NCBI RefSeq assembly: GCF_900176885.1
Contig: NZ_LT839648.1
Coordinates: forward strand, 1,019,049 to 1,083,048
Direction of reading: 5' to 3'
Length of the DNA: 64,000 nt
Origin: Oceanobacillus senegalensis
GTDB lineage: Bacteria > Bacillota > Bacilli > Bacillales > Amphibacillaceae
The position numbers were made by a program, and so were the translations under genes. Under the pieces are notes generated by a model. It did no database searches. It worked only from the letters and a program-made list of their open reading frames with translations, and was not told where the DNA came from. Below are positions 3,669 to 52,170 of this stretch, in pieces. Each line of letters begins with the position of its first letter. Position 1 is the stretch's first letter.

Positions 3669-3700
3669 AAGGGTTGACTTTTATTGTCAGCCCTTTTGTT
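3669..3700 (+). terminator. Rho-independent terminator after speD
   Basis: An 8-base-pair stem (3671-3678 with 3686-3693, one G-U pair) is preceded by A-rich and followed by T-rich sequence. Confidence 0.85.
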
Positions 3701-3708
3701 TATTCCAG

Positions 3709-3830
3709 GTTAAGGGGCGGTAATACCCCCACCTCAAAAATGGAGGGAAAACGAATCCTTTTAGGTGGGGGATAAACTGCTTCTAAAAGCCCCCCCATTT
3801 ATTGAAGACTTACTTTACGAAAGATAAGGT
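3709..3830. repeat. Dispersed structured repeat, copy A
   Basis: This segment is closely similar to 47219-47395. It has a nested fold: an outer stem (TTAAGGGGCGG at 3711-3720 region with CTGCTTCTAAA near 3777-3787, several G-U pairs), a perfect 9-base-pair stem CCCCCACCT/AGGTGGGGG, and an inner small hairpin with an AAACGA loop. A run of C residues and a TTACTTTA tail follow. Copy A lacks about 50 bases found in copy B. The rest of the gap to nrdR (3831-4071) is AT-rich and I see nothing else in it. Confidence 0.75.
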
Positions 3831-10500: not shown

Positions 10501-10522
10501 CTATATACCAATATTACAGGTA

Positions 10523-10820
10523 AATTGAGACTGGGACAAAAGTATTTTCTCTAAGTAAAAGTCGAACATAATTGGTGGATAAAAATCGCTCCGGAAATAT
10601 ACTTCGCGCACCTTAGGGCGGCTGATGAGCCCCCTTCGTGCTAACGCACTACGTCTCACCTAGGCCTCTCATCCCGCAGGACTAGGAACGCTACGGCAGC
10701 AAGGCATCGCACGAAGAAAATTGCACTTTATTTTCGAGGAGTCTACGTATATTTCCTCCGCTAAGTAGTGTGTTATTCGTCTTTTGAGTTAAATACTTTA
10801 GTTATGTCCCAGTCTCAATT
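10523..10820. repeat. MITE-like element with perfect 16-bp terminal inverted repeats
   Basis: AATTGAGACTGGGACA (10523-10538) and TGTCCCAGTCTCAATT (10805-10820) are exact inverted repeats bounding 298 bases. A further inner pair includes GGAAATATAC (near 10593) and GTATATTTCC (near 10747). There is no open frame of note, and the G/C content is higher than the surroundings. The ends resemble a GAGACTGGGACA repeat common between genes in Bacillales; no target-site duplication is obvious. Confidence 0.75.
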
Positions 10821-10849
10821 TTTTAAAGTGATCATTAAACCCCTTGGAA

Positions 10850-11228: not shown

Positions 11229-11372
11229 GTTGAAAAAATAAATGATCTGTAAAGACAAGTAGAAGCACCCGCTTCTCACCTGATCGACGCCATAGTGAGC
11301 AGTTGACTGGTTCCAAAATTATCATCTTTGATTGGAAACGTGTGGGTGCATTGTGTGTACCGACACTTTTTT
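11229..11372 (+). ncRNA. L20 leader controlling infC-rpmI-rplT
   Basis: The leader has AAGCACCCGCTTCTCACC (from 11264) and ends in a terminator (11340-11350 with 11356-11366, one mismatch, then TTTTTT). The 5' strand GCACCCGC at 11265-11272 can instead pair with GTGGGTGC of the terminator arm. This is the alternative fold known for the Bacillus L20 autoregulatory leader, in which r-protein L20 promotes termination. Confidence 0.85.
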
Positions 11373-11432
11373 AATGTATGAACAAATGCTTGTCCCAATA
11401 GATCAGTGAAAAAACTTTGGAGGTGGCTGAAC

Positions 11433-47171: not shown

Positions 47172-47218
47172 GAGTATAACTGCAGTGAAAAGCAAATAAT
47201 CTTTAAATATTTTCGCTG

Positions 47219-47395
47219 GTTAAGGGGCAGTAATCCCCCCACATCAAAAATGGAGGAAAAACGATTCCTTTAGGTGGTGGATAAACCTGTCCCTTAAAGC
47301 CCATCGGACGTTGCGACTTTATCTTTTGTTCCTTTGTTTTAGTGGGGAATGAAAAGACCCCCCCACTAATTGAAAATTCACTTTATAAAAAAGGA
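47219..47395. repeat. Dispersed structured repeat, copy B (longer)
   Basis: This copy shares GGTTAAGGGGC, CAAAAATGGAGG, AAACGA and GGATAAAC blocks with copy A at 3709-3830. Outer arms TTAAGGGGCAG (47221 region) and CTGTCCCTTAA (47287-47297) pair with a G-U. An added hairpin, TTAGTGGGG/CCCCACTAA (near 47339-47369), and a TTCACTTT tail close it. No frame is present. Confidence 0.75.
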
Positions 47396-52018: not shown

Positions 52019-52092
52019 GCGGGTGTAGTTTAGTGGTAAAACCTCAGCCTTCCAAGCTGATGTCGAGGGTTCGATTCCCTTCACCCGCTCCA
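52019..52092 (+). tRNA. tRNA-Gly (anticodon TCC)
   Basis: Acceptor arm GCGGGTG (52019-52025) pairs with CACCCGC (52082-52088). The anticodon TCC is at 52051-52053, the T arm holds GGTTCGATTCC, and a CCA end is encoded (52090-52092). It reads GGA glycine codons. Confidence 0.96.
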
Positions 52093-52096
52093 TTAT

Positions 52097-52170
52097 GTCC
52101 CAGTAGCTCAGCTGGATAGAGCAACAGCCTTCTAAGCTGTGGGTCGCAGGTTCGAATCCTGCCTGGGACG
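52097..52170 (+). tRNA. tRNA-Arg (anticodon TCT)
   Basis: Acceptor GTCCCAG (52097-52103) pairs with CTGGGAC (52163-52169). The anticodon TCT is at 52131-52133 and the T arm holds GGTTCGAATCC. No CCA is encoded, unlike the adjacent tRNA-Gly, so it must be added after transcription. Confidence 0.96.

Follow-up and report, generated by a model that had tools for sequence, protein, structure and literature searches.

The window, the whole stretch of 64,000 nucleotides analysed here (Oceanobacillus senegalensis, contig NZ_LT839648.1, positions 1,019,049 to 1,083,048), carries two copies of a short structured element on its forward strand, copy A at 3699..3818 and copy B at 47209..47386. Copy A lies between two genes that we take, from their sequences, to be speH-like and nrdR-like, and copy B lies beside a presumably gerE-like gene. 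A covariance model of the element, R1, matches copy A with 76.1 bits (E 3e-14) and copy B with 52.9 bits (E 2.8e-9), and sets their limits about 10 bases to the left of the starts given for these two related segments in a preliminary description of the sequence. No open reading frame of 80 or more amino acids overlaps either copy, and a coding remnant was rejected on that ground. In three genomes of the same genus (G005, G017 and G018) the corresponding gap is shorter and diverged and lacks the copy A element; no empty site was seen for copy B, the matches within the genus ending inside the gerE-like gene or shortly beyond it. Rfam also places a ribosomal protein L20 leader and two tRNA genes in the window (11251-11378 and 52019-52170), all of them ordinary. 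Another interspersed repeat, unrelated to the element, occupies 10522-10821; it is about 300 nt long and has inverted arms (GAGACTGGGACAAAAGTATTT ... ATGTCCCAGTCTCAATTT), and similar starts were seen in five further loci, four in the host (L028, L189, L198 and L203) and one in Bacillus sp. SD088 (L047).

Copy A begins with TTTAT (3699..3703), followed by a two-tier left hairpin (3710..3787), supported by folding and by covariation in the family, with outer stem arms read from the sequence at 3710-3720 and 3777-3787, an inner stem CCCCCACCT / AGGTGGGGG and an apical hairpin with the loop AAACGA. Its right hairpin is damaged, having lost the 5' arm, and it closes with the pentamer TTTAC (3814-3818). 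Copy B, a long form that includes a middle segment, starts with the pentamer ATTTT (47209-47213), and its left hairpin (47220..47297, by sequence and fold) has an outer stem at 47220-47230 / 47287-47297. Its right-end hairpin (47339..47369), supported by sequence, fold and covariation of the right hairpin, has 9-bp arms TTAGTGGGG (47339-47347) and CCCCACTAA (47361-47369), and the conserved right end consists of TTCAC (47377-47381) and TTTAT, together 47377..47386. The AAACGA loop is retained in both copies, and copy B has the additional 9-bp hairpin and TTCAC, all as first described. The outer-stem differences had also been read as preserving pairing; the stems are present, but the changes between the copies are mostly one-sided (a G-C pair becoming G-T), with an A-A mismatch in copy A. 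Folded alone, copies A and B give modest z-scores against shuffled sequences of -2.67 and -1.72, and the intact relative L051 folds at z = -7.37. With one-sided changes and modest z-scores, covariation was weakly founded on two copies, yet the idea was right for the family, across the whole of which selection on the fold is borne out by covariation.

Elements of the family are about 110 to 430 nt long (the longest 432 nt), with an intact form of about 155-160 nt that contains, in order, TTTAT, about 10 nt, a two-tier left hairpin, a linker, a right hairpin, about 9 nt ending in TTTCAC, and TTTAT. The left hairpin has an outer stem of about 9 bp, an inner stem CCCCCACYT/ARGTGGGGG and a variable apical hairpin, and the arms of the right hairpin are CAATCAGTGGGGG/CCCCCACTGATTG. 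The element contains no gene and, by inspection, has no terminal inverted repeats, the ends TTTATCCCGCATTAAC... and ...GAAGTTTCACTTTAT not being inverted copies of each other; it has instead one hairpin near either end on a single strand. Long forms, up to 432 nt, have their extra sequence in the middle of the element, and those of about 110 nt seem to have arisen by deletion between two GTGGGGGAT direct repeats. A single G-run in such short forms (e.g. L006, L016 and L028 of the host) could thus take part in either of two hairpins. Simple open reading frame calling placed 72 of 73 copies from four genomes outside reading frames.

DNA and RNA folding parameters gave the same main hairpins. In an alignment of 16 sequences that had not been fitted to the model, 13 of 35 pairs were changed on both sides; among 68 distinct rows the figure was 25 of 35, with 95.5% of cells paired and 227 cells with two-sided changes, compared to a mean of 52 for shuffles and 9-43 with the partners slid, although this larger alignment leans towards structure because it was fitted to the model. 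The right hairpin (helix 4) has changes on both sides in nine of 13 pairs. The sense strand has 161 G.T pairs vs 76 A.C mismatches in two alignments that have some copies in common, an excess that fits selection on the sense strand, whether as RNA or as single-stranded DNA. The pairing does not call for a small RNA family in its own right, though it may be one, since the same is expected of a single-stranded DNA hairpin. Rfam gave no relevant match in the window (gathering scores) or at four loci with copies (E up to 1), so a known RNA family was rejected and the earlier suggestion of an omega-RNA-like guide scaffold found no support; where Rfam families gave no match, covariance model R1 is now supplied.

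The preliminary description took the element for a two-copy repeat. In the host genome (G000), all 40 scored places among 116 blastn candidates match copy A, so that at least 40 places are occupied, and R1 finds 55 matches among 150 scored. Building the model from genome-wide copies, as had been proposed, yielded covarying stems and many copies with TTTAT as the flanking motif; a pair of copies alone, a lack of covariation and a coding remnant, the outcomes that would have spoken against a selected fold, did not occur. By blastn, the element was found in 35 of 58 genomes (host included) and 10 of 31 genera, and by R1 in 139 of 397 Bacillales genomes and 69 of 135 genera; a class-wide draw gave R1 matches in 38 of 299 genomes, 29 of the 38 outside Bacillales. 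Weak copies are missed in both R1 surveys owing to strict filters. One exact pattern searched over GTDB contigs returned 25 stretches, from Bacillus sp. SD088, Oceanobacillus, Cytobacillus, Aquibacillus, Lederbergia and an unclassified Bacillaceae. Copies within a genome are up to 99.4% identical (G384 and G073), which indicates recent movement in some hosts. A phage or plasmid vehicle was rejected: phage records had no element match at E 0.01, viral contigs had none to two exact patterns, and matches in plasmid records were few. A degenerate copy lies at 3973-4064 of L086, from the Klebsiella grimontii plasmid pNY3A (CP079755), with DUF262 and restriction endonuclease genes within about 4 kb; it may stem from transfer or from a mixed assembly.

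TTTAT is present at the left end of 110 and at the right end of 120 of 133 distinct sequences, counts that lean upwards because TTTAT is part of the model from which the limits were taken. These 133 are the distinct rows of at least 100 nt among 150 aligned, and one of them (L168, 359-513) is an antisense match. The pentamer deviates on the left only in 19 sequences and on the right only in nine, and L231 and L275 have the same variant on both sides. Where copies stand in tandem, the overlap is exactly 5 bp (G337:C2, G126, G669 and G685). Empty-site junctions were examined in 30 loci. For L260, a copy in G384, the joined flanks match without the element in seven of 13 other genomes of the genus at 80-86% identity, with CTTAT at the site in six and TTTAT in one; element-free junctions also match for L257 (five loci) and L263 (four loci), without a clear TTTAT. 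The foot of the left hairpin has TAAC or TAAG in 64 of 72 copies and that of the right hairpin has TAAC in 68 of 72. The second TTTAT could be borne by the element or be a target duplication; the duplication is suggested by the matching variants of L231 and L275, which are not predicted by an IS200/IS605 mode of insertion. The two-sided TTTAT, the tandems sharing 5 bp and the two copies with matching variant pentamers would also suit site-specific recombination, in which a tyrosine or serine recombinase would join a circle with a TTTAT core to a chromosomal TTTAT and any orientation bias would come from folded single strands, as in integrons. We consider this unlikely, as it leaves the end hairpins and the common motif at their feet unexplained.

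The orientation of the element follows replication. With the origin placed from dnaA and the terminus opposite, the element points with the fork in 147 of the 180 copies counted in seven genomes, each of a different genus (p = 2e-18, copies taken as independent): 34 of 40 in the host, 39 of 55 in G112, 19 of 23 in G384, 8 of 12 in G337, 14 of 15 in G274, 13 of 14 in G202 and 20 of 21 in G367, the bias in G337 alone not being significant. The 180 copies are the best-scoring subset of the 624 matches that the seven genomes total, and comprise 140 of the 150 best R1 rows (four host rows and six rows on secondary contigs were dropped) and 40 host blastn copies. Exact chromosome lengths for G202, G274 and G367 left the counts unchanged relative to rounded ones. 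In the host, orientation switches at about 1.35 and 3.5 Mb, points that were noted before dnaA was located at 3.53 Mb, and on the fork strand GC skew was positive in all 21 samples taken. Host open frames also tend to point with the fork (306 of 401), and neighbouring genes were controlled for in 103 copies from five genomes (30 of the 40 host copies and 73 from G202, G274, G367 and G384). Elements pointed with the fork in 13 of 13 cases where both flanking genes ran against it, in 35 of 40 where the flanking genes were mixed and in 43 of 50 where both ran with it. The bias thus persists whatever the neighbouring genes do, and gene-driven orientation was rejected. A skewed supply of sites was rejected for the host, where TTTAT counts by strand are nearly equal (1756 vs 1705 overall, 470 vs 483 in intergenic sequence). 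Fork-following orientation means that, in roughly four of every five copies counted, the lagging-strand template carries the top strand of the element, which reads 5' TTTAT-left hairpin-right hairpin-TTTAT 3'.

These counts bear on two RNA-level readings. A cis-acting RNA retained for a regulatory role, be it as terminator, stabiliser or small RNA, and spread by ordinary duplication would account for the strong covariation and for the near-absence of copies from reading frames, and roughly half of the bcr copies of two strains of B. cereus are described as transcribed within mRNAs (PMC3446304). It is nonetheless barely plausible, given that orientation goes with the fork rather than with adjacent genes, that the right hairpin is not followed by a T-run, and that copy A is absent from the matching gap in the three relatives. 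An RNA-level retroelement, whose structured RNA would be copied into lagging-strand gaps by a reverse transcriptase acting in trans, would fit the excess of G.T over A.C on the sense strand; group II introns can retrotranspose by way of lagging-strand gaps, with a preference for the lagging template. This too appears decidedly improbable, since G.T is milder than A.C in DNA as well, no relevant Rfam match was found in the window or at the four copy loci, and TTTAT on both sides with tandems sharing 5 bp is unlike intron insertion.

On balance, we favour the reading that this short Bacillales element is mobile but non-autonomous and travels at the replication fork as single-stranded DNA. Members of the IS200/IS605 family are described as inserting into the lagging template in single-stranded form, with an orientation that recapitulates the direction of replication (PMC5371812, PMC6006769), and as having site-choosing guides at the 5' base of their end hairpins, no inverted repeats and no target duplications (PMC7290912). 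The family shares many of these features, with hairpin ends, a fixed TTTAT site and TAAC-type motifs at the hairpin feet; its fork-following orientation is what an IS200/IS605 mode of movement predicts, and the family is read here as a non-autonomous element working in that way. A Y1 HUH transposase acting in trans would bind the folded ends, the putative guide that pairs with the flanking TTTAT would be the TAAC-type motif found 5' at the base of both hairpins, and the enzyme would cut the element out of the lagging template as a single strand that would then be pasted 3' of another TTTAT. An IS200/IS605-type end was the nearest of the suggestions in the preliminary description: geometry, site and fork orientation fit it, but a matching autonomous element was not found.

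A search for Y1 transposase genes (PF01797) found none in the host or in G023, G088, G337, G356 and G367, each of which has at least seven element matches, and the host copies are probably relics, as the host genome is now without a detectable Y1 transposase. The genomes with the most similar copies (G384, G073, G371 and G106) do have Y1 genes, a point in favour of a Y1 helper. In 66 stretches around Y1 genes, some of them around the same gene, no Y1 gene lay between a left and a right end of the element, and three of the stretches held a copy to one side. Presence of the IS605 TnpA clade of G384, scored at E of 1e-40 or better in 43 genomes, is weakly associated with the family, which occurs in 22 of the 43 genomes with the clade vs 117 of 354 without (p = 0.027). 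The IS605 of G202 and G384 appears to use TTTAAC and that of G112 TTGAT. A resident Y1 transposase as mobiliser was rejected on the six copy-bearing genomes that lack Y1, the differing IS605 sites and the weak clade association. The element therefore works like an IS200/IS605 derivative but is not filed as a member, given these six genomes, the lack of a Y1 gene between its ends and the weak association with the TnpA clade.

At L316, L317, L318, L319 and L327 the IS605 of G202 and G384 follows TTTAAC, ends in GTTCAC and has a right hairpin CCCCCACTTCAA...AAGTGGTGGG, which resembles the inner left stem of the element, just as GTTCAC resembles TTTCAC; both likenesses were seen post hoc. It differs from the element in its left site, TTTAAC instead of TTTAT, and in carrying a Y1 gene, which is followed by a gene that we take to be tnpB. 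This IS605 is a possible ancestor or helper of the element.

Many relatives have weak Y1 matches in frames of about 170-310 aa, which we presume to be RAYT-like. A REP/REPIN element served by a RAYT (a domesticated Y1) would suit the presence of such frames, and REP sequences are described as possible non-autonomous clients of TnpAREP (PMC8266576). We regard this as very unlikely: G000, G023, G088, G337, G356 and G367 carry copies and have no Y1 match, and RAYT-like frames occur also in genomes without a family match (e.g. G043 and G051). The unit, moreover, is 110-430 nt long with unlike ends, compared to a palindrome of 20-40 nt. The element resembles REP/REPIN sequences in being palindromic, dispersed, intergenic and gene-less, and differs from them in its larger size, its asymmetric ends and its occurrence in genomes without any Y1 gene.

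The single-strand reading supplies a testable mechanism for the TTTAT-flanked repeats of Bacillus-like bacteria, the pasting of folded single strands into the lagging-strand template, for a repeat present in half of the sampled Bacillales genera. It also raises the sharp question of which enzyme moves an element in several hosts that have no Y1 gene. A more speculative extension, which we hold only tentatively and think rather doubtful, is that the family is an order-wide parasite of single-stranded DNA that has outlived a dedicated autonomous partner or never had one, and that it is helped by an HUH enzyme that has escaped recognition or by some other enzyme associated with the fork, which might move bcr1 of the Bacillus cereus group as well.

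PATE-like derivatives of IS200/IS605 share with the element the lack of genes and of terminal inverted repeats, two end hairpins, insertion at a fixed motif and lagging-template orientation; in contrast to them, the element has ends that no examined Y1 insertion sequence has, TTTAT as both end motifs, and several hosts without Y1. A further likeness is to bcr1 of the Bacillus cereus group (group A, bcr1-bcr3), compared by description only, in its size of about 150 nt, its stem-loop, its tens of copies and its TTTAT. A 2004 study of bcr1 reportedly gave TTTAT at each end. Published texts list bcr1 at 147 and 167 bp (table in PMC2267715), mention a TTTAT motif (PMC6542083) and call it MITE-like (PMC3446304, PMC3733652). 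In one of these bcr1 is ranked with MITEs that have terminal inverted repeats (PMC3733652), whereas the present element has none, and in a 2019 paper the first BCR is given as restricted to the B. cereus group (PMC6542083), whereas the present family was found in 69 of 135 sampled Bacillales genera. PapR, a marker of the B. cereus group, had no match among the 397 Bacillales genomes, which does not prove the group absent from them, and none of the plasmid and phage matches was a B. cereus group record. Six short stretches of the element returned nothing relevant from published text, and no report of a fork-directed orientation of bcr1 was found in the open-licence literature. If bcr1 belongs to the family, what is new here is the spread of the family and its fork-directed orientation.
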